IMG/VR virus record: IMGVR_UViG_3300028008_000040
Span: 1-37,824 of that record
Direction: 5' to 3' (one strand)
DNA: 37,824 nucleotides
Source: a virus
In this document: piece by piece, positions 15,201 through 36,780 of the stretch
Layout: the number at the start of each line of letters is the position of its first letter
How positions within the stretch are numbered: position 1 is the stretch's first letter
Notes under the pieces: generated by a model
Seen by the model: only the letters and a program-made list of their open reading frames with translations
Told to the model about the DNA's origin: nothing
Databases searched by the model: none
Position numbers and translations under genes: made by a program

Positions 15201-18200
15201 GCCCGCAAGCTGTACTCTTTACAGATAAAATTCCTAACAAAAACTTTGATAAATTATTTAGAATAAAGCCTAGTGAGTTAGTAGATAAGCCTGCAGATTA
15301 TACAAGTAACGTTTTTACAGTAAAACCGACAGTAAATGAATATGTAAAAACATCTGGACCGGTAGATATTGACGATATAGATTTTGAAGTTTCTAATAGA
15401 AGTGATCTTTCATTAGGAAATATTAATCAATTTAAACTTGGCGGATACATTCATTTAACAAATCAAATTAATGAAAATTGGCAAGTATATCAACATACAC
15501 GTTTAAATTTAATTGCTGAAGAATTAACCGAAGTTGCAACTTTAAATGATGCAGGAGAGTTAATATACAGTGTAAAATTTAACAAATGGATCTCGTCATT
15601 TATTAGTGTAAGTCAGTTTATAGGAATTCGTGATGCTCAAGAATATAATTTAAACGGATTTTATGAAGTTGTTGGCATTTCTAACAATACTGCATTTATT
15701 AAAGTACCAACTGATAATAATATTATTGGATTTATAAATGAAAAGCTATCAGTCTCTACACTAAGAGAAGTTAGAATTAACTCAACAACAGATATAAATC
15801 AAATTGTAAATGAGGAAATGTATAGCAACCAAAAAGTTTGGGTAGACAATTATTCTAATCAAAACTGGGCAGTACTTCAAAATAATAGTGTATACAATTT
15901 GTTAGATCAGTATGATAATCCTACAGAATGGGATAGTACACAACAAAACTTTACAGGCGCCATGGTAGCTACACCTGATAATAATAATGTTTTTGTTGCA
16001 GCAAGTGGAGACGATGCCGGTAAAATATTTGTATACAGGAGATCAAGAGATTCAGATAAACTTATTTTATCTCAAGAATTGAACTTAGAAGATGCTACAG
16101 AGAGTATAGATTCTTATAATGGATTTGGCCATAGTATTGATGTAAGTCCGGATGGTGAATATCTTGTAGTAGGTATTCCTACTACATCGGGTATAAAAAC
16201 TTTGTTTAAAGGAGATTTCGATCCTGATACCGAATATAGAAAAAATGATATTATAAAATATAGAGAAAATTTTTGGAAAGCTAACAAAACTATTATTCCG
16301 CAAATTGGAATACAGCCATTTTCAACTTTTGATAGTTACGTAACTCTAGTTGAGCAAGAAGACACAGACAGTACAACTTTAAAGTTACTTGTTGCAGGTA
16401 ACCCAGGTTTACCTACTAATAATATAGATCACTTTTTAGTACGTGCTCCTGAAGATATGTATATAGGCACAAAAGGCCAAACAGATGGCGAGGAAGGAAC
16501 GGGCGATAAGGTTAACTTAGCTTGGAACAGAAGTAGTTATGCATTTCCTACATTGGATGCTTATTTGCCATTTGATGGTGAGATACCAGCATTGACTGCG
16601 GAGTTTATCTCTCAAGAACATGAAATTGTAGAAAAAATTGATGCAATTCTTTATATAGATACGTATGTAAGCCTACCCTCAGTAGGAGATCAAGTTGAGA
16701 CTGATACAGGTAGCGGAATAGTCTATTATTTAGAGACATATAGAGACAGCGCAGTTTTATACTTAAAAAATCTAAACGGAGTTATGACTGTAACAGGAGA
16801 ATTATTTGTCTCCAACGGAAACTTTATGGGATTTTATTCACAAGAATCTACATTTGCTACGTCAGACGCTGTTGGCGGCTTTTGGCTTATTAAAACACCA
16901 TTTAATTACGGAAATAATGGTAGATACTTTGATATAGGCAGAGGCCTTGTTTTTGCCGATGTGCGTACTTCGGACAGTGCAAGAATTACAAACATATATT
17001 CAAACATTCAAAACACTACTAGTGAAATAGGCACGTTTGTTAACGAAGAAAATCGAGCTAGTTTTATAACACATTTATCCTACACAGGAGATCCAGACGG
17101 CACAGAAGCTCCGCAGCCAAGCAATCTTTGGGCAGTCAGAATAAGCAAAGATTTTACTCAAGAGCTACTAGACAAAAACTTTTACACTAGTGCAGGTTCT
17201 GAGTCAAATCAATCGTTATCGTTTAATTTTTATAATCTAGATAACAGTCCAGTAAGTCTTACAAATACAGGTTTTGATATTAACGAGTTAAACCAAAGTC
17301 ATCAGCTATACGATATTTGGGATGGATATATTGATTTTGAATTTACAGAATTTGATTTCCAAGGTAATCCATTTGGATTGCAAGTTGGCGACATAGTGAC
17401 AGACTCTCAGATTCCTAGAGACGGCCAAGGAGGATTAGCATTAACTAGTACGTCAACATCGTCTGCAGAAGTAGTATTTTATCAACGTAATTTTAATAGT
17501 GTGCGAATATACGTTAAAGTATTATCGGGAAGTTGGAGAGAACTTAATAATATAGCTAAAGTTGAAATTCAACGATCAGCGAGAGATGAAAATGACGTAG
17601 ACCGAATTGTTGGCACAATATCTGATACAAAAAACAACATTGTTATTGGAACAAACCTAGTAGGAAAATTACTTATTTTTCAAAAACAAACTGGGAATTT
17701 TAATATATCAAGTAATCCTGCAATACTAAATGCAGAGTATTATTTTTATAAGGAAAACATAGAAGGAGGTATACCTAGATTACCTAATCCTCCGTCTGAG
17801 CTGAATAAGGATTATGCTCATGTATATAATATTCCTCTTGATGCAAGAGGAACGTCTAGCGGATTAAACAACGAAGGATCCGTTGCTATTTTTAGGCGCC
17901 AACCTAACGGAAAATATGACTATAAAAGAGTATTAACAAGTCAGTATAAAACAAATGAACGCAGATTTGGAGAAAAAGTACGTATAACACAACAAGATAA
18001 CTTATACACACTTATGGTTAGTAGTGATAGTGTTGTTCTTGCTGGCGACGACTCTACAGATAGAAGAGAACATCCGGGCGCGATAGAAATATTCTATCAC
18101 GGCACTGAAGAATTAGATCAATTTAAAGGTGGATATCAACTCACACAGTATAATAAAGGCGACATCGTAATATACAAAGATGATTATTATGTTGCTAACA

Positions 18201-21200
18201 AAGATACAGACGAAGCAGTGATTAGTAATATAACAAATTCTATTGTATGGGATAACATTAGTTTTAGATATGGTGTAGATCGAGACTATAAAGGAAATTG
18301 GGATAACTCCTATGGGTATCAAAAAGATTCTATTGTTTTATACGATAATAAATTTTATAAAGCATTAACAAACATTGCCGCAGGAGTACAATGGATTACA
18401 TCGTACTGGAAAGAAGTAACTAATAAATTTGATTACTTGGGTTACTTACCTAACTTAACTGGCAATAACTATTATGGCGAGGATGTTTATGACCCAGTAA
18501 CTAATATAATTGAATTTAGTGAGGCGTTTGATATTAGTCCTACAGGGCAGGTATTAGCTGTAATTGCTCGAATTGAAGAATCAAATAGTACTGTTACAAA
18601 AAATTTAGCAATTTATAGAAAAGATGATTCTAAATATAAATTGTATCAAATAATACAAAGTCCTAATGATATAGAGGATTGGGGATCACAAGTTTCTATT
18701 GCACCTGATGGACTATCAATAGCAGTGTCTGCACCAAAAACTACAGTCAATACATTGAATCAAGGTGCTGTGTATATTTACAAACAGGTAAACGGTCAGT
18801 TTGTATTAGATCTCCAAAACAAACAAGGACAAATTATTACAAGCCCGACTAGCGAATTGTCAGAATTATTTGGATATAAAATTGCTCTTACTGATCAAAA
18901 TCTTGTAGTTACTAGTTTAAACGGAGATCAAAAGAGACCAACTACATTTGATGTCTTTTCTAAAAAAATAGAAGAATCTATATATGTAAATGACAGTCTG
19001 TCAACACGTAATAGCGTCGAAACAACATTTGATCAAAACTTTACGCAATTTGCAAACACAAATATAGACTCGGGAATGGTATATGTCTACGAAGATATAC
19101 AAGGCTCGTATACTTACAGTGAAAACTTTAAATTTAACAATACAACATATGAATTTGGCAAAAATTTACATGCATCGAACAATCACGTTTACATTGGCAT
19201 ACCATTTTATAGTGATGATCCGTCTAAAGGTATTTTCTTAGATTATAGAAAACCAAAAAATAAGTTTGCATGGAATATATACAAAGAAATTAGACCTCCG
19301 GTAGATTTAGATCTAATCGAAGGTGCATTTATATATAACAAAAAAGAAAATAAAATTGTTAGCTATGTAGATTATATTGATCCTATACAAGGTAAAGTTG
19401 CAGGAATAGCAGAACAAGATATTACATTTAAGTCATATTATGACCCAGCATATTATAATGTTGGATCTACTAATTCTATTAATGTAAATTCAGACCAAAC
19501 ATGGTTAGATAGTCATGTCGGCCAAGTTTGGTGGGACCTTACCTCGGCTAGATATGTTTATCCTTATCAAGGTTCGATAAATTATCAAAAAAATAATTGG
19601 AGTGCATTATCCGAAGGAGCAGAAATAAATGTTTACGAATGGGTAGAATCAGATGTTTTACCTAGCCAATGGGCAGTCGAAGCAGATACTGAAAAAGGTA
19701 TAGTCAAGAATATATCTGGACAACCTCTCTACGGCGATGCAAAGTATAGTGCAAAATTAAATTACGATCCGTTATCACAAACATTTACAACAAAATATTA
19801 TTTCTGGGTCAAAGACAATAAAGTTATTCCGTCCCTTGAAAATAGAAATATAAGTGTGTATGATATTTCTCAATTGATTGAAAGACCACGAGAAAACGGA
19901 TATAGATATATTTCTTTTATTGGTTCTGATAAGATTGTTTTAAATAATTTTGACAAATTAATAAAAAGTAATGATTTAATTTTAAATATAAAATACAAAA
20001 CTAAGCCTACAATAGATTCTAATCTACATATGCAATATAAATTAATTGCAGATGGTGATTCCACTGCAACTATTCCGACAAATATAGAACGCAAATGGTT
20101 TGATAGTTTAATAGGATTTGACTCTAACGCTAGACATGTTCCCGATAGCAATTTACCTACCCCGCAAAAATATGGAATACTTAACAGTCCAAGACAAGGT
20201 ATGTTTGTTAATCGTACTGAAGCATTGAAACAGTCAATTGAAAGAATTAACGAAGTATTTAATAATAACTTAATAGCCGATGAGTATAATATTAATGAAC
20301 TTAATAGAATTGACGAACTCCCTTCAATATCGTCGGGCGATTACGATGTATCGATAGATACTTATGAAGAATTACAATATATAAGCACTAACAAACTTAT
20401 ACAAGCAGTTTTAACTCCTATTATTATAAATGGTAGACTAGAAAGAATTCAAATTACTAATCCTGGAAGAGGCTACAAAGTGCCGCCTACAATAGAAATA
20501 CTAGGACAAGGAAGTGATGCAGAAATAAAATTAGAGATTAATAATTTAGGTAGTGTAACTAATGCTACAATAGTTAATAAAGGTCAAGGTTATGACGACA
20601 CTACATCATTCTTTGTTAGAAGATTTAGTGTATTAGTCAAGTCAGATAGCACTAGCCAAGATTTTTGGTCAATTTACGGTTATAATGAAACTAGTAAAAC
20701 TTGGTTTAGGCGCCGATCGCAGTCGTTTGATGTTAGCAGATATTGGAATTATAAAGATTGGTATGCAGAAGGATACAATCAATTTACTAAAATAGATTAT
20801 GAAATTGATGCTAGTTATGAGCTCCAAGGTTTAAATCCTGAATTTAATTCAATAATAAGAATTAACGATATCGGAAGCAGTGGTTGGCTATTGTTAAAAA
20901 GAACTGGAAATAGTGCTAGTGAGGATTATACAATTGATTACGAAACTATTGGCAGACAAAATGGTACTATAAACTTAAAAAGTTCGTTGTATAATACTCA
21001 AGAAAATATATCTGGTTATGATAATAGAACATTTGATAATGGAATATACGACAATAACCCTGCCCAAGAGTTACGTATAATTTTAGAGTGCATTAAAAAC
21101 AATATTTTTATAAATGACCTTGCTATAGAATATAATCAGCTGTTTTTTAGCAGCATACGTTATATTTTGGCTGAACAAATAAATGTTAATTGGGTATTTA

Positions 21201-24200
21201 AGAGTAGCTTTATAAAAGTAAATCATAAATTAAGCAGCTTGGAACAAGATATTACATTTAATCAAGATAACAAACAATATTTCCAAGATTATATACAAGA
21301 AGTAAAACCATATAAGACACAAATTAGAGAATTTATTTCTAGTGTTGATGCTGTAGAGCCAACTAATACTTCAGTAACAGATTTTGATCTATCACCACAA
21401 TATAATCCTGCAACACAAACTATAGAACCTATCTATACTGATGTAACGGAAGGCGTTGTGCGATCCTTCCGTCCCGATGCTACTTCTGTATATCCAAGAA
21501 AGCATTTTATTGATAATTTAGGTTCAGGCATAGAAAAAATTGTAATAAAAGATCCAGGATCTGGATATACTATTCCGCCAAAAGTAATAATTGGTGATGG
21601 CACATCTTCTGCACAAGCTCAAGCATATGTAGGATATGGCAAAATTACAGATATAAAAATAATAAATCCTGGAAATAATTTTATTTTACCGCCAACAATA
21701 AAGATTGAGGGCTCTCAAGCAGACAATGGCACCGTTGCAACTGCATTTGCAAGACTATCTAAGGGAGTTGTGAGAACTCCAACTGTAAAGATTAAGTTTG
21801 ATAGAATTGCAAGTGAGTTTTATATAGAAAATCTTTCTGTTACTGAATCAATAACGCCTAGATCGACACAGCTTCGATATGATCTTGTATGGCCTGTGAA
21901 TTTAGAAAATGATAAATTAAAAATTTATGTAAATTCACAAGAATTACTTAAACGTGAATATGTTATTGAAAACATAGAAAAAACAGATAATCGAGCTACG
22001 TTTAAACACGGTAGAATTACATTTATAAACCAATTATCTGACAATGATATTGTAACAGTAGACTATTATAAATCTATAGAATTATTAGATGCAGCAGATA
22101 GAATTAATTTTGCATATAATCCCACTAGTTCAATGGCAGGAAAAAAACTTAACCAATTAATGACTGGAGTTGATTATGGAGGCGTCGAAGTTAAGAGCTT
22201 TGATTTTGATAGTCCTAGCGGTTGGGATACTCAGCCGTGGTTTACTGATTCATGGGATGCCTACAATAATACTTTTGAAGATGAAGTATTTACAAGTGAC
22301 GGATCTACTATTGCAGTACAACTAAGTGCTCCTTTAGAAGACGGTATAGTTTATAACTTTTATAAAAATGGTGTAAGAATTGATGCACCTGACTATGTAG
22401 AAAGTACTCCAGAAGTTCCAGGATACTCAGCTACTAATCCGTATGCAGAAACAGCAAGTATGACCGGCGATGGACAAACAGATATTATTTACACTCAAAA
22501 TTTAGGTATAGATTTAAACGACGGCGATGTGTTTATAGTCAGAAAAATTACAAGTGATGGTAGTATTATTGCAGACTTAGCTAGTTATGACACACAGTTA
22601 CAAGGCGGCGACCTAGCATATACAAAAGCACAAGGTGTAAATGCTGAGGAAATAGTAACAGACGGCGATTTATTTGTATCTACTACCCATGCAAAAACAG
22701 AAGAGTTTATCCCAGGATCTGTTTTTGATACACTAGATATTACGGTACATACAAGATCCTCAGGTGGCCAAGGAATCATAAAATGTATTAATAGAGAAGT
22801 AGCTAGTACTGGTAGTTTTACACATAATCTTAGTAACACAATTGGTTCTACTAATAGCATAATAGTAAAATATGACGGTCAAATTTTAAATGATACACAA
22901 TATACCTTAGATTGGGCAGCACAAACTGTTACTATTCCTAACCTATTAGCAAACAAAGCTCTTTCAATAATTGAACAAGATCAAGGATCTTCGTCATTAC
23001 TAAAAAATACTGGTGAAATTATTGTTAGTCAACCACTATCTCAATTTATTCTAGAGGAAGAATGGAACGAAGATATATCAGTACATGTTACAGTCAACGG
23101 AGATCAAATTAAGAATACTTTTTATAGTAATCTTACTCTTACAGAAGACGATAATAGAATTGTAGTTGAATTTGAGGAAACTTTACAACCAAACGATGTT
23201 ATAAACTATTCTGTATTTTTAGGAAATGCGCAAGTTAATTACAGTCAAGTTGTTATTGATCAGTTTACAGGTAACGGGTCAACTGTAGATTTTGTACTAC
23301 AAGAAAGTCCGTTTTATGCGTTGCCAACTGAACACAATGTTGTTGTTCAGGTAGGACAAAAGATTCTTAATAGTGGGTATAACATTGAGTATACAATACC
23401 TGATAATAATCAAAGAGAATATAAACTGGAATCATTCCAACAACCGCCAGGGTCTCTTTCTGCTACAGGGCTTAAAGTTTTCCTTAATGGTGAAGAAATA
23501 ATTACTCCCGAACAATGGAGATTAGACATTGCAAACAGTTCTATAATACTAAGTGACGAAGCAGGTACTCCTGGAGATCTTGTTGAGATATATAATATTT
23601 CTGAAAGTGAATATAGAATTCTAGGAAAACAAGTTACTTTATCTAATCCGCCCCAAACAGGTGAACTAATTAGTGTTTACCAATACAGTAATCATGATTT
23701 ATTAGGTATAGAAAAAATCCAACTTGATGTTGTAAAACGTGCACAAATTATTTCAGATCAAGAAACTCGATCTTATTTAAGATTAACAGTTGGCGAAATT
23801 GAATTAAGAAAACCAGCAGTAGATGCACAATATGTATGGGTGACGCAGAATGGAACATTACTTACACCTAGTGTTGATTATTATATTACTAATGATAGAA
23901 AAAAGGTAAGATTAGTTGAGATACCTACAGACGACGATGTTATAGAAATAATTCATTTTGCAGCAGATGTCGATACTGACGGCTTTAGTTATCGACAGTT
24001 TAAAGATATTTTAAATAGGACTCATTTTAAGAGATTAGATGCACATAGTACAGTTTTAGCAAATCAGTTAAACAGCGACGATCTTAGAATAGAAGTAGTA
24101 GACGGAAGTGATCTTGCAGAACCAGATAAGGGTAGAAATTTGCCAGGAATTATTTTCATAAATGGTGAGAGGATCGAGTATTTTGTTAAAGAAGACAATT

Positions 24201-24673
24201 TACTCCGTCAGCTTAGACGAGGTACTCTCGGAACTGGTGTCCCTGCTTTCCATGCAAATAATACGAAAGTTTATAATCAAAACAGAGAAAAAACAATTCC
24301 GTATAAAGATACAAACGTAACACAAAATGTTGTAGCTGACGGTATTAATAGTAGTTTTGTAATTAATTTTCCTGTAGATGATCTAAACCAAGTAGAAGTT
24401 TTTGTAGGAGGACGTAGGTTAAGAAAATCCTCTATAGAAATATATAATCCTAGCATAGCGCAAAATAGTCCAGCAGGTGACGAAACATTTGCAAAAGAAT
24501 TTGATGTTATTAATAACACATTAATTTTGCAAGATATTCCTGCAGATCAAGTGACAGTTACAATTGTTAAAAAACAAGGACAAATTTGGAAAAAAGACAA
24601 CGAACCGCTTGCAGAAGCACAAAATTCTATTGCAAGATTCTTACGTGCAGGAACATATGAGCAACCTGAATAA
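9215..24673 (+). CDS. Giant modular virion structural protein, 5152 residues
   Basis: One uninterrupted frame encodes about 580 kDa directly after gp6, where T4 has genes 7-10, so a peripheral baseplate/adhesin role is inferred. The N-terminus (SIDFLPKFFRTEANRKFLQ, then WTPHINWDTFTNFREYYWLP) resembles very large structural proteins of marine T4-like phages. Modules in order: repeated VxVNGxxLxxxxDY beta units near 750-800 and 980-1030; chitin-binding-like modules near 1573-1615, 1830-1870, 2331-2380, 2970-3017 and 3019-3067; FG-GAP-like propeller blades between about 2240 and 3347; NPGxGYxxPP repeats at about 3740-3805 and 4105-4175; further VNG beta units from about 4500; and a C-terminal INGERIEYF (4983-4991) plus LRRGTLGTG motif found in many phage structural proteins. 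No transmembrane segment, signal peptide or protease motif was seen. The start overlaps the gp6 stop (TAATG). The structural role is well supported; individual module functions are inference. Confidence 0.85.
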   Translation: MAYNNNQNESSLPTPGNNKKQSIDFLPKFFRTEANRKFLQATLDQLISNGAAEKIDGYVGRKYNESYKLGDHYLEDVSRLRNDYQFEPAVSLRDNLDNVEFAKDYQDYINVLKYFGTNIENHDRLNSVNTYSWTPHINWDTFTNFREYYWLPNGPLTVPVTGQSREITSTYSVTIEDQGDNVAYVFNDGFTRNPKLKLYRGQTYRFDIDTPGHPIAFSISRSFTPGVALLVAGQEGIRGDGLFDAVLYGNEYDQGEYVVLPVDNSVTFEADENVSTLFPDGIRKFDEEGNEVAIAYVEKGTIEFTVPFNAPTHLFYISQNEVNTSGQIRVYDVEENTFLNVEEDILNKKQYKSSNNIEFTNGLCIQFQGDVYPEKYSLGEWYVEGVGSQIALISKQDLTIPSAYTSDVEVPFDTNEFDVFPFDTANNFPLVKDYITINRATKDKNPWSRNNRWFHKDVVLKSFRYNNVAENLDDNYRASRPIIEFDAGIKLFNYGVSAKKDIDLLDSFTTDVFSTIQGQVGYIVDGIELQQGMRVLFTNDSDILVSGKIFEVKFINLNNQRVIKLEETIDTMPLDLETVFVKSGKKYSGLSFHYTNNSWVQSQTKDSINTEPMFDLCCPQGNSYADPTVFNSTTFKGTKIFSYKKGNGNDDTELGFPLSYRNIENSGDILFEFNLLTDFFNVQDADDLITIKTDTANLRKYKDRENFDYLNGWNNTPSRFHQYVIKDIEVDLLTTNKISIDTYNAPARLTDLKIIVYKNNNLLFNSKDYTIEKKESNVYLTFEKDLEPGDLIKIKTHSKESKNENGYYELPISLERNPLNDDITEFTLGEVFDHVDSMIEELKDFRGTYPGNNNLRDLKNISKFGKRFVKHESGLANTIYHFTSKEYNIIRAVEFSKEKYLEFKRNFFDTSQKLGFDGTDIAHVDKILYELNKDKNKTQPFYFSDMLAAGAAARNEYRIIDNNINFYPLTRKFNLDDLTQQAVYLYINGVQLVHGRDYKFTDDNFVDIFREKNNGDVLEIYEYESTDGSFIPSTPSKLGLYPTWYPHIKLDDTSAKKETIYNAGPFKIYGESELGESKNKFGYYYPVFTTKSAAKEYNTTSENTIEEVYFKGLNKVFYIPSDIGSFATLNDTEDFEFFPNVRPFIIGHDGSQILCYLDYRDKLAIELEKRIYNNIKVDYNDNDIDVEAYLGNDFADYPVPQEIQNQLLLRDFTAWQKFIQVGYAENSFYDVNNPFTFNYKDANNLKGKQSPGFWRKIYFNNFNTDNPHSCPWEMLGFTNKPTWWNTVYGPAPYTSNNLILWNDLELGRIADPENTRIDKRFVRPGLRNFIPVNEKGDLISPLDCNIVSNFNQRTARESFEFGDYSPVESAWRKSSDFPFALLRTLLLTNPADTIAKGFDLANAKRNIANQKTYAPTGKFIANKDIVVPNTNVDSVRTITSGLLNYIYNLVASDVLSVYTTYTDQLKNLQVNLSFRLAGFSDKQKINLILESKSPKHDIGSSGIFVPQENYKLVYNVSSPLENFTYSGVIVEKSPNGFIITGYNEKYPQFDYFKPLIGSTKYPVTVGGLSEEFSTWAPRAPYKKDQIVFHLNAYYRVTSDFTSNTTFTQDFLAKLSTLPSAGGRVANFYKNFDNVTTKSLSYGTILKTVQEVVDFLLGYGALLKSKGFIFDDVTDDVVNDWPSVAKEFMFWTTQGWADGTVISLSPSANELRFQTEYSVVDNIFDKFYDTHIIANTGDELDGEFSSLLRDGNSFGLKIKNSDLGLYGMSLPIVQKEHIVILDNTTIFNDVIYHPASGYRQKRIRVTGYRSDEWNGSLNVPGFLYDDAVVKEFEEYKDYSIGNIIKYKQFYYVATQNTIGSTEIDYNQWIQLNEKPVSDLITNFDYRASQFNDFYESNTASFDPNLQELSQRFIGFQKREYLSNLIIDDVSQLKFYQGMIQEKGSKNSIMKLFGALSSKGQESLEFFEEWAVKTGMYGSTEDIKQIEIQLSDTDIVESPQAVLFTDKIPNKNFDKLFRIKPSELVDKPADYTSNVFTVKPTVNEYVKTSGPVDIDDIDFEVSNRSDLSLGNINQFKLGGYIHLTNQINENWQVYQHTRLNLIAEELTEVATLNDAGELIYSVKFNKWISSFISVSQFIGIRDAQEYNLNGFYEVVGISNNTAFIKVPTDNNIIGFINEKLSVSTLREVRINSTTDINQIVNEEMYSNQKVWVDNYSNQNWAVLQNNSVYNLLDQYDNPTEWDSTQQNFTGAMVATPDNNNVFVAASGDDAGKIFVYRRSRDSDKLILSQELNLEDATESIDSYNGFGHSIDVSPDGEYLVVGIPTTSGIKTLFKGDFDPDTEYRKNDIIKYRENFWKANKTIIPQIGIQPFSTFDSYVTLVEQEDTDSTTLKLLVAGNPGLPTNNIDHFLVRAPEDMYIGTKGQTDGEEGTGDKVNLAWNRSSYAFPTLDAYLPFDGEIPALTAEFISQEHEIVEKIDAILYIDTYVSLPSVGDQVETDTGSGIVYYLETYRDSAVLYLKNLNGVMTVTGELFVSNGNFMGFYSQESTFATSDAVGGFWLIKTPFNYGNNGRYFDIGRGLVFADVRTSDSARITNIYSNIQNTTSEIGTFVNEENRASFITHLSYTGDPDGTEAPQPSNLWAVRISKDFTQELLDKNFYTSAGSESNQSLSFNFYNLDNSPVSLTNTGFDINELNQSHQLYDIWDGYIDFEFTEFDFQGNPFGLQVGDIVTDSQIPRDGQGGLALTSTSTSSAEVVFYQRNFNSVRIYVKVLSGSWRELNNIAKVEIQRSARDENDVDRIVGTISDTKNNIVIGTNLVGKLLIFQKQTGNFNISSNPAILNAEYYFYKENIEGGIPRLPNPPSELNKDYAHVYNIPLDARGTSSGLNNEGSVAIFRRQPNGKYDYKRVLTSQYKTNERRFGEKVRITQQDNLYTLMVSSDSVVLAGDDSTDRREHPGAIEIFYHGTEELDQFKGGYQLTQYNKGDIVIYKDDYYVANKDTDEAVISNITNSIVWDNISFRYGVDRDYKGNWDNSYGYQKDSIVLYDNKFYKALTNIAAGVQWITSYWKEVTNKFDYLGYLPNLTGNNYYGEDVYDPVTNIIEFSEAFDISPTGQVLAVIARIEESNSTVTKNLAIYRKDDSKYKLYQIIQSPNDIEDWGSQVSIAPDGLSIAVSAPKTTVNTLNQGAVYIYKQVNGQFVLDLQNKQGQIITSPTSELSELFGYKIALTDQNLVVTSLNGDQKRPTTFDVFSKKIEESIYVNDSLSTRNSVETTFDQNFTQFANTNIDSGMVYVYEDIQGSYTYSENFKFNNTTYEFGKNLHASNNHVYIGIPFYSDDPSKGIFLDYRKPKNKFAWNIYKEIRPPVDLDLIEGAFIYNKKENKIVSYVDYIDPIQGKVAGIAEQDITFKSYYDPAYYNVGSTNSINVNSDQTWLDSHVGQVWWDLTSARYVYPYQGSINYQKNNWSALSEGAEINVYEWVESDVLPSQWAVEADTEKGIVKNISGQPLYGDAKYSAKLNYDPLSQTFTTKYYFWVKDNKVIPSLENRNISVYDISQLIERPRENGYRYISFIGSDKIVLNNFDKLIKSNDLILNIKYKTKPTIDSNLHMQYKLIADGDSTATIPTNIERKWFDSLIGFDSNARHVPDSNLPTPQKYGILNSPRQGMFVNRTEALKQSIERINEVFNNNLIADEYNINELNRIDELPSISSGDYDVSIDTYEELQYISTNKLIQAVLTPIIINGRLERIQITNPGRGYKVPPTIEILGQGSDAEIKLEINNLGSVTNATIVNKGQGYDDTTSFFVRRFSVLVKSDSTSQDFWSIYGYNETSKTWFRRRSQSFDVSRYWNYKDWYAEGYNQFTKIDYEIDASYELQGLNPEFNSIIRINDIGSSGWLLLKRTGNSASEDYTIDYETIGRQNGTINLKSSLYNTQENISGYDNRTFDNGIYDNNPAQELRIILECIKNNIFINDLAIEYNQLFFSSIRYILAEQINVNWVFKSSFIKVNHKLSSLEQDITFNQDNKQYFQDYIQEVKPYKTQIREFISSVDAVEPTNTSVTDFDLSPQYNPATQTIEPIYTDVTEGVVRSFRPDATSVYPRKHFIDNLGSGIEKIVIKDPGSGYTIPPKVIIGDGTSSAQAQAYVGYGKITDIKIINPGNNFILPPTIKIEGSQADNGTVATAFARLSKGVVRTPTVKIKFDRIASEFYIENLSVTESITPRSTQLRYDLVWPVNLENDKLKIYVNSQELLKREYVIENIEKTDNRATFKHGRITFINQLSDNDIVTVDYYKSIELLDAADRINFAYNPTSSMAGKKLNQLMTGVDYGGVEVKSFDFDSPSGWDTQPWFTDSWDAYNNTFEDEVFTSDGSTIAVQLSAPLEDGIVYNFYKNGVRIDAPDYVESTPEVPGYSATNPYAETASMTGDGQTDIIYTQNLGIDLNDGDVFIVRKITSDGSIIADLASYDTQLQGGDLAYTKAQGVNAEEIVTDGDLFVSTTHAKTEEFIPGSVFDTLDITVHTRSSGGQGIIKCINREVASTGSFTHNLSNTIGSTNSIIVKYDGQILNDTQYTLDWAAQTVTIPNLLANKALSIIEQDQGSSSLLKNTGEIIVSQPLSQFILEEEWNEDISVHVTVNGDQIKNTFYSNLTLTEDDNRIVVEFEETLQPNDVINYSVFLGNAQVNYSQVVIDQFTGNGSTVDFVLQESPFYALPTEHNVVVQVGQKILNSGYNIEYTIPDNNQREYKLESFQQPPGSLSATGLKVFLNGEEIITPEQWRLDIANSSIILSDEAGTPGDLVEIYNISESEYRILGKQVTLSNPPQTGELISVYQYSNHDLLGIEKIQLDVVKRAQIISDQETRSYLRLTVGEIELRKPAVDAQYVWVTQNGTLLTPSVDYYITNDRKKVRLVEIPTDDDVIEIIHFAADVDTDGFSYRQFKDILNRTHFKRLDAHSTVLANQLNSDDLRIEVVDGSDLAEPDKGRNLPGIIFINGERIEYFVKEDNLLRQLRRGTLGTGVPAFHANNTKVYNQNREKTIPYKDTNVTQNVVADGINSSFVINFPVDDLNQVEVFVGGRRLRKSSIEIYNPSIAQNSPAGDETFAKEFDVINNTLILQDIPADQVTVTIVKKQGQIWKKDNEPLAEAQNSIARFLRAGTYEQPE
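13928..14065 (+). other. Chitin-binding-like (CBM5/12-like) module 1 in the giant protein
   Basis: Residues about 1573-1615 read W-APRAPYKKDQIVFHLNAYYRV, matching the W...Y..GD.V.Y.G..Y.. pattern of small CBM5/12 (ChtBD3) modules. One expected aromatic at the end is not clear. It is assigned by pattern only. Confidence 0.45.
14702..14821 (+). other. Chitin-binding-like module 2 in the giant protein
   Basis: Residues 1830-1869 contain YKDYSIGNIIKYKQFYYVA and a closing W1867 (NQWIQL). This is the Y-x-x-G-N-x-I-x-Y...YY-x-A...W pattern of CBM5/12 modules, about 40 residues long. Confidence 0.5.
16205..16354 (+). other. Chitin-binding-like module 3, at the first propeller break
   Basis: Residues 2331-2380 read FKGDFDPDTEYRKNDIIKYR then FWKANKT, the same pattern as the other modules. 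It follows directly after an FG-GAP-like blade. Confidence 0.5.
18122..18415 (+). other. Tandem pair of chitin-binding-like modules 4 and 5 in the giant protein
   Basis: Residues 2970-3017 (FKGGYQLTQYNKGDIVIYKD, then YYVANKD, closing W3012) and 3019-3067 (YKGNWDNSYGYQKDSIVLYD, then FYKALTN, closing W3065) are adjacent. Both show W/Y...Y..GD/DS.V.Y...Y.A...W. These are the clearest copies. In known enzymes this fold binds chitin or cellulose through the exposed aromatics. Confidence 0.6.
20432..20628 (+). other. GxGYxxPP beta repeat pair 1 in the giant protein
   Basis: Residues 3740-3805 have IQITNPGRGYKVPPTIEILG followed by a second half-repeat with a VNKGQGYDD turn. The unit is I-x-I-x-x-P-G-x-G-Y-x-x-P-P-x-I-x-I followed by an A-rich strand. 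Confidence 0.6.
21527..21741 (+). other. GxGYxxPP beta repeat pair 2 in the giant protein
   Basis: Residues 4105-4175 repeat the same unit: IVIKDPGSGYTIPPKVIIGD and then IKIINPGNNFILPPTIKIEG. Together with the copy at 3740-3805 there are four half-units, probably one small beta fold duplicated. Confidence 0.6.
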
Positions 24674-24676
24674 ATA
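24669..24676 (+). promoter_or_regulatory. Probable late promoter AATAAATA at the end of the giant gene
   Basis: The motif overlaps the giant gene's stop codon (taa 24671-24673). It is 22 bases before the ATG at 24699, exactly the spacing of the corresponding motif before gp6, and atagga follows it. It is one of four such sites, each in an intergenic position of the structural block. Confidence 0.45.
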
Positions 24677-24698
24677 CAGTATAGGAAAAACGGATAAT

Positions 24699-25292
24699 AT
24701 GATGCAAGATAATCACGGAATATTAGTACAGGGTCACATTAAAATATTTGATCCAGATACAAGCGAAATTTATATAGATAAAAGAAATGCTATACATTAT
24801 GAAAATATGAGTATAGCATTAGCAGAAAGCCTTTCTAATGCTGGAGAAGGATTTATTTACGAAATGAGCTTAGGTAATGGTGGAACCAGCATAGATCCTA
24901 CAGGTATTATTACGTATCTAACACCCAACAGTACCGGAACTAATGCAAATTTATATAATCAAACATATACTAAAGTAGTAGATGACAGAAGTGTAAATAA
25001 TTTAGATCCTACTAGAAATAAAATAGAAACTAGACATGTAAGCGGAACAAATTATACCGATATACTTGTAAGCTGTTTGTTAGATTACGGAGAACCTAAT
25101 GGACAACAAGCATTTGATACTGCTGCATCACAAAACGAATCATATGTTTTTGACGAACTTGGTTTGAAAAGTTATAGTCCAAACGGTACAGGCAGATTGC
25201 TAACACATGTTATTTTCCATCCTGTGCAAAAGTCACTTAACCGTTTAATTCAAATTGATTACACCGTAAGAGTGCAGAGTTTAACAGGATAA
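24699..25292 (+). CDS. Conserved small virion structural protein
   Basis: From the ATG at 24699 this encodes 197 residues, beginning MMQDNHGILVQGHIKIFDPD. Recognisable segments are KRNAIHYENMSIALAESL, FIYEMSLGNGGTS, a GIITYLTPN strand and a C-terminal THVIFHPVQKSLNRLIQIDY. I recall closely similar proteins annotated as structural in marine T4-like phages; a precise role is not known to me. The frame is open back to 24564, giving up to 242 residues inside the giant gene, and an in-frame ATG at 24657 would add MSNLNKYSIGKTDN. I prefer 24699 because the family-like sequence starts there and a late-promoter motif lies just upstream. However, the best AGGA (24683-24686) is 12 bases away, so 24657 remains possible. 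It is followed after 4 bases by the first fibre gene. Confidence 0.75.
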   Translation: MMQDNHGILVQGHIKIFDPDTSEIYIDKRNAIHYENMSIALAESLSNAGEGFIYEMSLGNGGTSIDPTGIITYLTPNSTGTNANLYNQTYTKVVDDRSVNNLDPTRNKIETRHVSGTNYTDILVSCLLDYGEPNGQQAFDTAASQNESYVFDELGLKSYSPNGTGRLLTHVIFHPVQKSLNRLIQIDYTVRVQSLTG

Positions 25293-30774: not shown

Positions 30775-33700
30775 ATGGCAAATATAACAGCAGCACGAAT
30801 TAATAACCTACAGTCTAGGATTGAATTAATCCTAGGCAACGGCTCGGAAAAAAATGGATACGGTCAAACAGTTACAAGTGTGCAAGTTGTTCCTAACAGT
30901 ATTATAGATGCAGATCATTTAAATAACATTTATACAGATATAGTAAAAGCTAGAATACACCAAGTAGGCGTTAGTGATCCGTCAATTTCAACTATTAAAG
31001 AAGTAATTGAAGATCTAAATGTTATTGCAGACGAAACATCCTTTACTGTTACTAATGAAGGTACAGTAGCAGACGATCCAGAAGGCTCTAAAAAGGGAAT
31101 TGACGACTTTGAAGATTTAATGCAGCAAGTTGAAGTTGATAAACAACTGATACATCCTAGTCAAGCAACACTTGAGCAAGAGAATTCAAATCAACGAACA
31201 ACAGTATGGAATGGAAAAGTTTTCCATACATTTTTAATTACTTTTAATGATGCAGACGCAAGGCGCCACTTCTTTAATTCAGGAGGACAAGTACGAATAG
31301 ATCCTTCAAATGTCAATGCAACTACACCTAAAGGTCAAGATTGGGCATCATTACTAGATGAAGTTGGTATTATTATATTTGACAGTGATAGTACGTCTAG
31401 CACTACTCTTACTGGATTACCGATTGGTAATTTTAACTTAACCGAAGAATATCAAACTATTTTCTTTAAGTCGGGCACGGGATACTACAGTGGTGTATAT
31501 GCAGGCAATAGAATTACTGTGAAAGCAAAGGTCGTAGGCGACACTCAGCTTCAGTTTAATGTTGAATTCAATGATTCTGCAACCGATAACTCAATTGATA
31601 ACAACGTCACAGGTACGCTAACAAACTCAGTAAGAATTTATCGAGCATCGGGAACTAATGTTAGTGTTCCAACTCCAGGATTTAATACTCTACAATCACT
31701 AAGTGAACAGGGAACAGGAAATGATCCGTTGTATACACTAACAGCAAGTACTGCTACAGTTAACGAAGGATCGCCGTTTACAATTACTTTAAGCACACGC
31801 AATGTAGCATCAGGAACAACAATTCCATATACAATTACAGGCGTTTCTACAAGCGATTTAAATACAGGTTCGTTAACTGGTAACTTTGTATTGGATGAAA
31901 ACGGAGTTGATGTAGCGTCTTTTCTTGTATTAGCTGATGATACTACTGAAGGTACAGAAGTATTTACGTTGTCTTTAGACAATTTTAATGTAAACGCAAC
32001 TTTAACAATACAAGACACAAGTATAGATGTACCGACAGCCGAATATAGTGTTACGGTAAGCAGTGAATCAATAAACGAAGGCGGAACAGTTCAATTTATT
32101 TTAAATACAACTAATGTAGCTAATGCAACACTAGTTCCATTTACTATATCTGGTATATCTAGAGACGATTTAACACGCGGTGGATATACTTGGGACGACT
32201 GGTTTAACGAATGGGAAAACACGGGAACTTATTGGCCTAGAGGCACATATACTCGCTCTCAAATACTAGCTAGAAAAGAACTTATTTTACCATATTATGA
32301 AGGCAATCAACGTTACAACACTACTAATGGATTACGTTTTGGACTATATAGGCGAGCAGATTCAGCAGGATTAGCTTATTGGGTCGGAGACTCATTAAAA
32401 AATAACATGATAGGACAAGCCTTTACTGATGTATTTTTTAATGCAGTCCAAGCTGGTAATCCAGTCAGAGTACAGTACGCTGACAATGTCACTGATGCAA
32501 CAGAATTAGAACGAGCACAGACGTCGGTAAAACCTTTCTTATATGGTACAAGTAGTGATTTTACAAATACATATGATTGGGACGACTGGTTTGATGAGTT
32601 TGCTGCTTCGGGTGCACCTAACTCGTCAACACGAAATTGGGGCGGCGCATCTAAGGCCGATGTGCTAGCTGCTAAAGATTTTATATTAAACATTTATCAA
32701 GGTAACGAGGATGTTGCAGCAGTATATGACGGTACAGGAGCCTCAGCAAGTCTATCGCCTGAGGGTGCCGGTGTCGTACTAAACAATGGTAACCCACTTT
32801 ACGGATTTTTTAGAAAGCCAAAGGCCAACGGAATAGCTTATTGGACAAACGAAATAGTCGTTAACGGCCTTGATAGAGAATGGGTAAAAGCTTCTATGTT
32901 CAACTCGGCATTAGTAGCAGAATCGAACGGCACAGCAGTTGTGCAAGCAGATGGACAAACTGATGCTGCAAGAATAAGAACAGCAGATAAACTATTTTTA
33001 TACCCACAAACTGGCACAGTAGTCCAGGATAGAGGAGACATTACTACAGTAGTAGGCAATAGAGGATCAGTTAATAACGATCTAGATACAAATTTACAGG
33101 GTAATTTCTACGTCCAAAGCGGCAATGCAATCAAAACTTATGCACTTAAGAACGATGCTTCGGCAGGAAACAACCCAGATGGATCTGATGAAGGCACCGA
33201 AATAATGACGCTAACACTTAATAACGGATTATCAAGTGCGTCAACATCTGTATTTGATACTAGTAGAGCAGATAATTCAGATGGTCCGCCACCATTCAAC
33301 GAAGGTCCGGCTATAAATTCTTTTTCTTGGAGTAGAAATGCTGCTACATATGGTGATCCGTTGAATGTAGTTTGGTCTGTTACTAATGCTGACACAATAC
33401 TAATAACCTTTGCTGTACCAGGACAGGATATAGCTCCTTTTTCAACAACAAATTCTACAGGTAGTACAACACTCTTTAATGCAGGAAATGTTTCAGGTAG
33501 CGCCACAGCCACTCTTACAGCTACAGGACCTGGAGGCACAAAGTCATCCTCAGTATCTATTACTATAGCAGGCCCTCAACCTTCTATTAATTACTTTCAT
33601 CCAGTAGATCAGAATGGAAACTATTTAGGACCGACCACATCTCTAACAGCAGCGTTAAATGAGCCTGTTTATTATACTTACAGTGTATCAAATGCTAACA

Positions 33701-35403
33701 ATATAACTATTACTACAGACTTTGGCGAAAGCTTTACATCGCCAGTATTATCGTTGCCCACTGGCAATACAGGTACGTTCCAGTTTAGTGTAGCTGGAAC
33801 AAAAACAGCAACTCTAACTGCTACTAATGCTGATGGTGAGTCTATAGAACTTACAAAGTCTTTTGCTGTTGAAGAAGACGGCACAGTTGATTTACCACCG
33901 ACTTGGGCATATACACCGACTTGGAGAGACTTAGCCGGCACCACTCCTGTAGGAACAAGTGGCAGAGGATATGCAGGAACAGTAGATCGAGATGCAGACA
34001 TAACATATTCTATAATAGGACCGAGCGGTGACATATTTACTACAAGTTTAGGACCTGAAAACAATCAGCAAATTACAAATACTCCTACCTATACCTTCAG
34101 TAAAGAGGGAACACATTTACTAACAATGACAGCTACAACTCCAGGAGGTACGATTAGTGCTTACGATCAGGTGGTTGCATTAAGTGCTGTAGTAGAAACA
34201 TATGAAATTACTCCCAAAGCTGCTACAAAACAGTTTGGAGAAGTTATATACTTTGTAATAAGTACACAAAATGTTCCGTTATCTACTAATTTTACTATTA
34301 AGCTTACTAACGGAAGTTTTGTAGCTACTAAAAGCACTAGCACAGGGTTAAGCGATTTTGGAGTTGTTCAACTGCCGTTTATTCTACAAGACAATGTAAA
34401 TGAGAGTGGTCAAAGTGAGCAATACCCTACTGGAACTTACTCAGTTCAATTATATAAGTTAGGAAGTAGTACTGTATTAGATAGCACAACTCTTACAGTT
34501 TCAGCACTTAATCCGTCATATTCAGTTGCACCATCTGCACTTACAGTAACGCAAGGCGATACTGCTGAATACGTGCTGTCTACAACAAATGTTGAAAATA
34601 ATGTAAGTATTATTACACGATTTACAAATAATAGCGATAGTGATGAGCTTTTTACAGTTGAAGATCTAATATCAAATAATTCAGCTACAATACAATGGCC
34701 GACTAGCAACAGAAGTACAGGAACTTATACAGTAGAATTTTTTAATACGACTTTTGATAATCTTGTTGCTACTGCGTCACTTACAATTAACGCACTACCT
34801 TCTACTTATACTTTAACTCCTCAAACAGCATCAACAATTGCCGGAGTTAATCCAGTGTTGTATTCACTGACGACTACTAATGTTTCTAATGGTACTTTGC
34901 TATATGCAACTTTAGATAAAGCTAGTAGCGGAACCCAAAAACAAATAGGCGCAGTTACAGTTAATAATAGTTTTGCATCAGTTCAAGTGAATACTTTGGC
35001 AGCAGACCCTGCAGGCACAGACTATAGTGTAAATATTAGGACAGACGGCTTTGACGGAGCAATAGTAGAAACAGCAGGATTAACTATTGCTGCTCCGCCA
35101 ACTTATACTGTTAGTCCTCAAGATGCAATTATTAATGCAGATGAACAAGAATTTTATACTGTAACTACAACTAACGTAGCAGACGGAACAGTTTTATATT
35201 GGCACATTGGCACTAGTGCAAACGCTGCGGTTGCAGATGCTTCGGGACAAGTTACAATTACTAATAATACAGCACAGTTTGCATATACTCCGTCTAGTAC
35301 TGAATTAGTAGCAGTAATGGATTTATACATCAAAACAGACGGTCAAGGCGGCACAGCAGTTGCTACAACTGGTGTTACGGTAGTAATACAGTCAGGTGCT
35401 TAA
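30775..35403 (+). CDS. Large adhesin-type structural protein with Calx-beta-like and Ig-like domains and inserted DUF4214-like modules
   Basis: This 1542-residue protein has five parts. (1) Residues 1-310 are a virion domain shared with the next gene (ITAARINNLQSRIELILGNG, an NGYGQT loop, HFFNSGGQ at about 165-172). (2) A Calx-beta-like domain is at 320-416 (YTLTASTATVNEG...TEGTEVFTLSL). (3) A second such domain begins at about 420 (YSVTVSSESINEG), is broken at 470 by two DUF4214-like modules (471-757), and resumes at about 773 (LQGNFYVQSG, DEGTEIMTLTL). (4) Residues 845-1140 hold PKD/Ig-like segments (VVWSVTNADTILITF, ATLTATGPGG). (5) Four Ig-like repeats of about 100 residues start at Tyr1143, Tyr1249, Tyr1345 and Tyr1444, each Yx(V/L/I)xPxxA...TTNV. 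It is probably a long surface-exposed fibre or decoration for host contact. The ATG follows aagg with 7-base spacing. No enzyme motif was seen. Confidence 0.78.
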   Translation: MANITAARINNLQSRIELILGNGSEKNGYGQTVTSVQVVPNSIIDADHLNNIYTDIVKARIHQVGVSDPSISTIKEVIEDLNVIADETSFTVTNEGTVADDPEGSKKGIDDFEDLMQQVEVDKQLIHPSQATLEQENSNQRTTVWNGKVFHTFLITFNDADARRHFFNSGGQVRIDPSNVNATTPKGQDWASLLDEVGIIIFDSDSTSSTTLTGLPIGNFNLTEEYQTIFFKSGTGYYSGVYAGNRITVKAKVVGDTQLQFNVEFNDSATDNSIDNNVTGTLTNSVRIYRASGTNVSVPTPGFNTLQSLSEQGTGNDPLYTLTASTATVNEGSPFTITLSTRNVASGTTIPYTITGVSTSDLNTGSLTGNFVLDENGVDVASFLVLADDTTEGTEVFTLSLDNFNVNATLTIQDTSIDVPTAEYSVTVSSESINEGGTVQFILNTTNVANATLVPFTISGISRDDLTRGGYTWDDWFNEWENTGTYWPRGTYTRSQILARKELILPYYEGNQRYNTTNGLRFGLYRRADSAGLAYWVGDSLKNNMIGQAFTDVFFNAVQAGNPVRVQYADNVTDATELERAQTSVKPFLYGTSSDFTNTYDWDDWFDEFAASGAPNSSTRNWGGASKADVLAAKDFILNIYQGNEDVAAVYDGTGASASLSPEGAGVVLNNGNPLYGFFRKPKANGIAYWTNEIVVNGLDREWVKASMFNSALVAESNGTAVVQADGQTDAARIRTADKLFLYPQTGTVVQDRGDITTVVGNRGSVNNDLDTNLQGNFYVQSGNAIKTYALKNDASAGNNPDGSDEGTEIMTLTLNNGLSSASTSVFDTSRADNSDGPPPFNEGPAINSFSWSRNAATYGDPLNVVWSVTNADTILITFAVPGQDIAPFSTTNSTGSTTLFNAGNVSGSATATLTATGPGGTKSSSVSITIAGPQPSINYFHPVDQNGNYLGPTTSLTAALNEPVYYTYSVSNANNITITTDFGESFTSPVLSLPTGNTGTFQFSVAGTKTATLTATNADGESIELTKSFAVEEDGTVDLPPTWAYTPTWRDLAGTTPVGTSGRGYAGTVDRDADITYSIIGPSGDIFTTSLGPENNQQITNTPTYTFSKEGTHLLTMTATTPGGTISAYDQVVALSAVVETYEITPKAATKQFGEVIYFVISTQNVPLSTNFTIKLTNGSFVATKSTSTGLSDFGVVQLPFILQDNVNESGQSEQYPTGTYSVQLYKLGSSTVLDSTTLTVSALNPSYSVAPSALTVTQGDTAEYVLSTTNVENNVSIITRFTNNSDSDELFTVEDLISNNSATIQWPTSNRSTGTYTVEFFNTTFDNLVATASLTINALPSTYTLTPQTASTIAGVNPVLYSLTTTNVSNGTLLYATLDKASSGTQKQIGAVTVNNSFASVQVNTLAADPAGTDYSVNIRTDGFDGAIVETAGLTIAAPPTYTVSPQDAIINADEQEFYTVTTTNVADGTVLYWHIGTSANAAVADASGQVTITNNTAQFAYTPSSTELVAVMDLYIKTDGQGGTAVATTGVTVVIQSGA
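32185..33042 (+). other. Tandem pair of DUF4214-like modules inserted in the adhesin gene
   Basis: Copy A (residues 471-599) starts YTWDDWFNEW and has FGLYRRADSAGLAYWV. Copy B (600-757) starts YDWDDWFDEF and has WGGASKADVLAAKDFILNIY, YGFFRKPKANGIAYW, VVQADGQTDAARI and the closing GTVVQDRGD. LYRKxDxxGLAYWV is the hallmark of DUF4214, a helical domain of bacterial surface proteins of unknown function. The pair separates two halves of a Calx-beta-like domain. Confidence 0.65.
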
Positions 35404-35448: not shown

Positions 35449-36780
35449 TTGCCTAATATTATTATTACAGCAGCACGATTCAATGATCTTTATGGACAAG
35501 TTCGCCAAATATTAGGGGATGCATCAGGTCCAACATATGACTGGGATGATTGGTATGACGAATTTAAATCATCCTACTGGGGCGGTGCCTCTAAGGGTGA
35601 TGTAATAGCAGCTAAAGACTTTATAGTAAATCTTTATGAGAGTAATGACTCTTTTAGCACAAGTCTCGGCACAAGATATGGACTATACAGAAAAGCAAGA
35701 GCTTTGGGCGTAGCTTATTGGGTAAATGACATTGTTGCATCTGGATACAGTGAATCACAAACTTTAGATAACCTCTTTTATGCCGCACAATTTTCAACAG
35801 TTGTACAGGCAGACGGTCTAACAGATGCTCAACGAGTCCTAACTCCTAGTAAAACTCCTTTAGATTTTGGAAAAGGAACTGTAGTATCAGACAGGGGAAC
35901 GTCCGGCTATGGATACGGTGCAACTATGTTAAGTGCACCAGCTAACAAAGGAACCCCGATTACAGCCCAAACTGATAAAATATCAGACGAAGAGTATATT
36001 AAATTATACAAAGATATTGTACGTATAGATGCGCATCAAAATGGCTCTTCAAACATAACTATAAATCCATTCGTTGTAGGCGACTTCGAAGCTAATCCTG
36101 CCACAGTAGATAAGGTAGAGGAAAGTTATATAGCAGGACTAGAATCTATAGTTACTACATTAGACACTAATAGATTTCAAATTAATGCAAGTAATCAGTC
36201 ATCTATACAAGCACTACTAAATCAAGACGGAAATCAAATTGAATCAAGCAGAAGTTTAATATGGCGCACTCAAATTTCTCATATTTTTACAGTTCAGTTT
36301 GATTCAGATATTGACTTATATGCATTCTTTAACTCCGGCGGACAAATAATATGTTCTCCGAGAATTCAATATACTGGCAGTCAATTAAAAACAGTTAATT
36401 GGGCAAACCTTTTACAAAATATCAATAACATACAATTTGGAGCTCTACAAACTAGTGATAGTAACGGAGTTACATCTACATCGGGTTTTGAAGATCTAGT
36501 AACAGGTGCTTATACAAGAGTATATGTAAGCTCAAGTGCTTTGGCTTATGCAAATAATGTAGTAATTTTAGATGCACGAATTTCAGCAAACGATCAGATA
36601 CAATTGAAATTAACACTGCTAGATAATCACAGCGAAAATATCGACGAATATGTACAAGGCATTGTATCTAATACTGTTTCTATTAGAAAAGCAGACGGAG
36701 AAGTAACTATTGCTGGTGAAACAATCGATACTGTAAAATTTAATGAAACAATAATCGGACAGCCTGTTTCAGAATTTTAG
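35449..36780 (+). CDS. Structural protein paralogous to the adhesin N-terminus, carrying one DUF4214-like module (TTG start)
   Basis: This 443-residue protein starts at TTG. The aagga at 35436-35440 is 8 bases upstream and no in-frame ATG lies near; the sequence begins MPNIIITAARFNDLYGQVRQILG, matching the paralogue's first residues. The N-terminal domain is interrupted at residue 30 by one DUF4214-like module (30-150: YDWDDWYDEF, WGGASKGDVIAAKDFIVNLY, YGLYRKARALGVAYWV, GTVVSDRG). It then continues with the GYGYGAT loop, EEYIKLYKDIVRIDAHQNG and a C-terminal domain with FFNSGGQ (293-299). That domain has the same order as residues 1-310 of the 1542-residue protein. Unlike that protein it has no Ig-like repeats and ends at PVSEF. 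It is probably another component of the same appendage. Its function is unknown. Confidence 0.78.
   Translation: MPNIIITAARFNDLYGQVRQILGDASGPTYDWDDWYDEFKSSYWGGASKGDVIAAKDFIVNLYESNDSFSTSLGTRYGLYRKARALGVAYWVNDIVASGYSESQTLDNLFYAAQFSTVVQADGLTDAQRVLTPSKTPLDFGKGTVVSDRGTSGYGYGATMLSAPANKGTPITAQTDKISDEEYIKLYKDIVRIDAHQNGSSNITINPFVVGDFEANPATVDKVEESYIAGLESIVTTLDTNRFQINASNQSSIQALLNQDGNQIESSRSLIWRTQISHIFTVQFDSDIDLYAFFNSGGQIICSPRIQYTGSQLKTVNWANLLQNINNIQFGALQTSDSNGVTSTSGFEDLVTGAYTRVYVSSSALAYANNVVILDARISANDQIQLKLTLLDNHSENIDEYVQGIVSNTVSIRKADGEVTIAGETIDTVKFNETIIGQPVSEF
35536..35898 (+). other. Single DUF4214-like module inserted in the second adhesin gene
   Basis: It covers residues 30-150, about 121 residues. 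It is closest to copy B of the tandem pair: WGGASK(A/G)DV(L/I)AAKDFI is shared almost exactly, and both end QADG(Q/L)TDA...GTVVxDRG. It lacks the longer loop of copy B between NIYQGNE and the YGFFRK motif. Immediately after it, tggatacggt (35910-35919) is identical to the bases at the same place in the uninterrupted paralogue. Confidence 0.65.

Follow-up and report, generated by a model that had tools for sequence, protein, structure and literature searches.

A DUF4214-like module in a putative phage appendage gene, probably gained once and later exchanged as an allele between diverged phages

The virus record IMGVR_UViG_3300028008_000040, analysed here at its full length of 37,824 nt (37.8 kb) and hereafter called the window, encodes two adjoining paralogous proteins, of which the smaller carries an inserted module that appears to have been gained once and later swapped in place, as an allele, by recombination. 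The explanation that we favour, and in which we place fairly good confidence when all its parts are taken together, combines a reused domain, one event of copying into the small gene, later replacement by homologous recombination and an exposed role on a phage appendage.

The window holds a set of baseplate genes (encoding a gp25-like protein, an M15-peptidase/OB spike protein and a Collar/gp10-like protein), followed by the two paralogues. The 443-aa ORF starts with a TTG at 35449, a short distance 3' of the sequence AAGGAG. The relevant features are as follows:

30775-35403, + strand: first ("big") paralogue, 1542 aa
30838-30864, + strand: empty site of the big paralogue (NGSEKNGYG)
31732-32022, + strand: Calx-beta-like repeat 1, uninterrupted, residues 320-416 of the big paralogue
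32044-32184, + strand: Calx-beta-like repeat 2, first half, residues 424-470 of the big paralogue
32185-32562, + strand: big-paralogue module copy 1
32572-33036, + strand: big-paralogue module copy 2, with an extra insertion of ~26 aa; clusters with the small-gene modules
33073-33264, + strand: Calx-beta-like repeat 2, second half, residues 767-830 of the big paralogue
35449-36780, + strand: second ("small") paralogue, 443 aa, module carrier, TTG start
35449-35518, + strand: N-terminal helix of the carrier (ITAARFNDLYGQVRQILG), 80% nt identity with the L006 phage
35519-35898, + strand: small-gene module and putative recombination tract, 94.7% nt identity to the L006 phage
35899-36777, + strand: remainder of the 443-aa carrier, from the GYGYG loop onward, 57.5% nt identity to the L006 phage

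Elsewhere in the window, a single 5152-aa ORF (9215-24673) separates the baseplate genes from the gp10-like gene, and the Pseudomonas jumbo phage PA5oct encodes a 3857-aa protein at the equivalent position. The end of the 5152-aa ORF is overlapped by 110 nt by a 242-aa ORF with a TTG start (24564-25292), whose true start is probably located further downstream, because its match to phrog_11259 begins at residue 45.

In the 443-aa protein, ITAARFNDLYGQVRQILGDAS is followed by the module of ~121 residues and then by GYGYG, which places the module after the first helix and ahead of the GYG loop; the 1542-aa paralogue, module-free at the same place, reads ITAARINNLQSRIELILGNGSEKNGYGQT. The reading frames, peptides, coordinates and empty site given by the initial annotation all proved correct on re-examination. 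The ten bases tggatacggt, which it had pointed out in both genes, are indeed present (35910-35919 and 30855-30864), but carry little weight by themselves, since they encode the conserved GYG motif. The distance between the N-terminal motif and the GYG loop has a bimodal distribution in 95 carrier ORFs, with 86 of them at 15-24 residues and 9 at 137-138, and the insertion is thus beyond chance. Empty second paralogues read, for example, ILGxSxxSPxYGYG, and in those of five relatives (L068, L088, L089, L112 and L125) the same loop is longer by several residues (ETNRNxxxY), which indicates that it tolerates changes in length.

The window contains, as had been reported, three copies of the module, one in the small gene and two in the big gene, located in two unrelated domain contexts and leaving the reading frame intact at every insertion; the one refinement needed is that both big-gene copies form a tandem pair at a single site. 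This pair sits within the second Calx-beta-like repeat of the big gene, as residues 424-470 joined to 767-830 can be aligned to the uninterrupted repeat (residues 320-416) with a score of 159, against a maximum of 39 for shuffled sequences. The claim of separate insertions in unrelated domain contexts, with real empty sites, is therefore upheld. The extra insertion of ~26 residues in copy 2 of the big gene (AAVYDGTGASASLSPEGAGVVLNNGNP) is absent from the other copies.

Modelled alone from 21 sequences (pLDDT 96.4, pTM 0.88), the module is predicted to fold independently, with helices at residues 4-15 and 21-36, a hairpin at 40-49 and two further helices at 57-68 and 74-85. The model of the full-length 443-aa protein has a mean pLDDT of 80.9 and a poorly ordered linker following the module. 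Residues R53, G59, A61, Y62 and W63 are invariant in the 21 modules, and the DUF4214 core motif R-x-x-D/A-x-x-G-x-A-Y-W is present together with the following helix, the latter as seen in the model. The DUF4214 profile (PF13946) matches 3 of 11 module sequences, with a best E-value of 1.3e-4, and the window modules score 13.2-15.9 bits against a curated cut-off of 23.2 bits; a profile built from the modules in turn matches a bacterial tandem DUF4214-like protein at 3e-6. The module thus resembles DUF4214, at a level below the Pfam threshold, in its R.pdA.GlaYW core and subsequent helix, but differs from it in being larger (~120 aa) and in having its own N-terminal WDDWYDEF helix, a hairpin and a C-terminal DRG tail. 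In other searches, PHROGs contained nothing convincing for the module, a sequence search of the PDB returned antibody chains only (E>0.3), and a search with the module fold gave no PDB match by Foldseek and a best Z of 3.4 by VIA-align. The carrier fold found only uncharacterised phage models and no significant PDB chain. Neither the small protein nor a far module type matched the phage reference genomes, and the window-module matches in phage references (32-34 bits, mostly in mycobacteriophages, E of at least 1) were taken as chance.

Relatives in IMG/VR were surveyed with carrier-only and module-only profiles, and the search that used the module-free N-terminal domain of the big carrier has no bias toward the module. 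Most relatives turned out to be module-free in this presence/absence survey, which the initial annotation had proposed: among 65 contigs with both paralogues visible (66 loci in the raw table, where one contig is listed twice), the module occurs in neither paralogue in 46, in the first only in 6, in both in 13 and in the second only in none. Together with the spacing distribution, these counts argue that the insert is real, and that the empty state is the commoner and probably the ancestral one. In a tree of 93 carrier domains, from which the module columns were left out, all filled second paralogues fall into a single clade (100/100), requiring one change. The carrier tree thus points to a single insertion at the small-gene site and contradicts repeated independent jumping into it; the description of the module as independently inserted stands insofar as the neighbouring gene carries it at a different site, the Calx-beta one. 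Every relative within the filled clade keeps the module at the same site, which agrees with a purely vertical architecture, in which the module would have entered ancestrally and been inherited with the gene, while differences in identity would reflect slower evolution of the module.

Regarding the source of the insert, the module tree groups the small-gene modules and the second copies of the big gene as sisters (100/97), nested within the big-gene modules, and a topology that keeps the big modules of this lineage together to the exclusion of the small ones is rejected (AU p 0.0037). Given this nesting, and given that no contig has the module in the second paralogue only, the simplest reading is that the big gene supplied a copy to its neighbour. 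The module would first have resided in the big paralogue, inside the Calx-beta-like domain, and was most likely copied from there, once, to the loop of the small paralogue that connects the first helix to the GYG motif; later copying back from the small to the big gene is possible. The small- and big-gene modules of one genome no longer show any special likeness, and a search for gene conversion between them within genomes found none. The search of bacterial genomes yielded only one distant DUF4214-like protein and thus gives no evidence for a bacterial donor.

The history of the module DNA after its gain is documented by a comparison of the window with the L006, L007 and L012 phages, to whose modules that of the window is ~90% identical at the aa level. 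Against L006, the tract 35519-35898 is 94.7% identical at the nt level and all fourfold sites of residues 27-149 are the same (52/52), whereas the remainder of the gene shows 48% aa and 57.5% nt identity, with 44-47% of fourfold sites identical, i.e. these sites are saturated outside the module. A three-segment fit places the tract at the module borders, with identities of 0.800 in the 70 nt before it, 0.947 within it and 0.575 after it, and MaxChi reaches 169.7, whereas the highest null value among 2000 permutations is 23.8. Over the ~9 kb of DNA that could be aligned (mean identity 0.722), the best 360-nt window is the module tract with 0.950, followed elsewhere by 0.828. The two trees disagree accordingly: L006, L007 and L012 group with L024 for the C-terminal part and with the window for the module, and each segment rejects the topology of the other (AU p 6.0e-8 and 2.0e-5). 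This is the conflict between module and carrier phylogenies that the initial annotation had suggested looking for, and the high-identity tract in an otherwise diverged gene shows that module DNA has been exchanged between diverged phages, in support of its proposal of a transferable module. Constraint on the module cannot explain the identity, because fourfold identity in the module is 100% for window/L006 yet only 63% for both window/L024 and L006/L024. The vertical architecture is thus improbable as a full account, being refuted as such by the reciprocal AU tests, and stands for the single gain only.

A second exchange is seen between L013 and L024, in which the last 95 nt of the module are identical at 94 positions, the rest of the gene being 57% identical, and the shared stretch ends at the same nucleotide as the window/L006 tract. 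This case also bears on whether the tract could be an assembly chimera of two co-occurring phages, a reading suggested by the metagenomic origin of all sequences and by the fact that just one further record, identical to the window at 100% over 8.4 kb and perhaps not independent of it, shows the exact junctions of the window. However, the module and its 5' flank differ by 5% and 20%, respectively, from the L006-type records, so that a mis-join would find few long identical words and chimerism is unlikely; moreover, the frame is intact, the L006-type alleles are present in three records and other records supplied the L013/L024 exchange. Overall, we consider a chimera very unlikely.

Under the explanation favoured here, after its single gain the module would have been inherited with the gene and replaced by homologous recombination between co-infecting phages, with the exchanged unit being essentially the domain. 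The 5' cross-over may have occurred in a semi-conserved stretch comprising the upstream ribosome-binding region and the N-terminal helix; the identity of 35449-35518, intermediate between the module and carrier levels, would then represent a flanking "homologous-recombination trace". The 3' cross-over would lie at the border of the module, between DRG and GYGYG, where the GYGYG codons could play the corresponding role, and a phage annealase of the Rad52/Red type might carry out the reaction. Phage mosaics generated by relaxed homologous recombination have a median tract of 404 bp with 96.1% identity, and a tract of ~400 bp with ~95% identity and one intermediate flank is the published signature of such recombination by phage recombinases (PMC3945230). 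The values found here (0.947 in the tract, 0.800 in the 5' flank and 0.575 in the background) correspond to it, and the module is thus probably moved by phage homologous recombination.

The initial annotation had regarded the module as a transferable cassette, which, in the sense of an autonomous mobile element, did not hold up. A protein cassette borne by an intein, a transposon or a site-specific recombinase and jumping between appendage genes would fit the several protein contexts of the module and the 3' tract ends common to separate exchanges. The module, however, contains no enzyme or recombinase, no terminal repeats and no nuclease match, and a search for border repeats gave two 9-nt chance matches only, none of them flanking the module. 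An intein or mobile intron is further opposed by the lack of histidine and of splicing blocks, the intact frame and the compact folded domain; intein, intron and transposon readings were dropped, as no defining feature is present. In addition, there was only one gain at the small-gene site, the copies in other contexts are diverged and no recent jump to a new site was seen, and near-identical module DNA at two non-homologous sites was not found in the viral contigs scanned, so that autonomous mobility appears highly improbable. Another proposition, possible though doubtful, is that the module borders are preferred exchange points, with cross-overs fixed at domain edges and a standing marine-phage allele pool of one appendage domain. 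It builds on at least two separate exchanges, a small number, whose 3' borders agree to within 1-2 nt. If true, an exposed domain would turn over independently of the phage backbone, in a cassette-like manner and without a dedicated enzyme.

Beyond the two paralogues, phages would have reused this DUF4214-like domain, which is predicted to fold on its own, in the loops and linkers of virion proteins. In the L068-L089-L125 group, the single big-gene copy is placed after the Calx-beta-like domain and not inside it. Further contexts include an LCCL protein, a carrier homologue with a C-terminal module, a 2269-aa phage protein (L034:3562-10368) that combines LCCL and glycine-rich domains with two copies of the module, and a phage-contig subtilase (L147:4303-7482; Peptidase_S8, E 3.5e-19) with the module between Calx-beta-like repeats. 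The copies in other contexts are ~25-45% identical to those of the window lineage, and these moves must thus be old. The two copies of the 2269-aa protein appear to interrupt its glycine-rich part, and the module of the subtilase again appears within an Ig-like stretch. In other phages (L098:7016-11509 and L099:6981-9590), the second paralogue is instead extended C-terminally to 870-1498 aa by different domains, and it seems that domains are generally added to this pair of paralogues as to a platform.

A carrier homologue of PA5oct, EST35_0123, is annotated as detected by ESI-MS/MS and is encoded two genes downstream of the gp10-like "baseplate wedge subunit and tail pin" gene. The display in a loop, the faster exchange in comparison with the carrier and the sharing with LCCL, glycine-rich and Ig-like phage proteins suggest that the module is probably an exposed domain on baseplate-proximal appendages, contacting the cell surface or a glycan, as judged from position and evolution, and may bind a polymer of the cell surface. 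This unnamed domain, with its confidently predicted fold, is a likely site at which uncultured marine phages contact their host or environment, and its natural allele set offers material for testing what drives module turnover.

Domain shuffling in phage tail proteins is usually deduced afterwards from unrelated fusions, whereas a single family shows here the empty state, a single insertion, a probable donor in the adjacent gene and the continuing replacement of precisely this domain. Recent shuffling in receptor-binding and tail proteins is known from published structural examples, in which whole terminal domains are swapped for unrelated ones (Smug et al. 2023, PMC10684548). The present case resembles that mosaicism in having a segment of at least 90% identity in otherwise strongly differing structural proteins of the tail region, with window and L006 sharing 90% aa over the module, the level used there for recent mosaicism. 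Recent mosaicism as defined there, however, joins otherwise unrelated proteins, whereas the present carriers are homologous (48% aa), which indicates allele replacement and not the joining of unrelated proteins. It also differs in that an internal domain of an N-terminal loop is swapped for its own allele, with empty-site relatives visible. A likeness is also found to the mosaics of De Paepe et al. 2014 (PMC3945230), with a tract of ~380 bp, ~95% identity and one intermediate flank, although the tract borders coincide here with those of a protein domain, and the phages of that study are mainly temperate coliphages, in contrast to the uncultured phages with T4-like baseplate genes described here.
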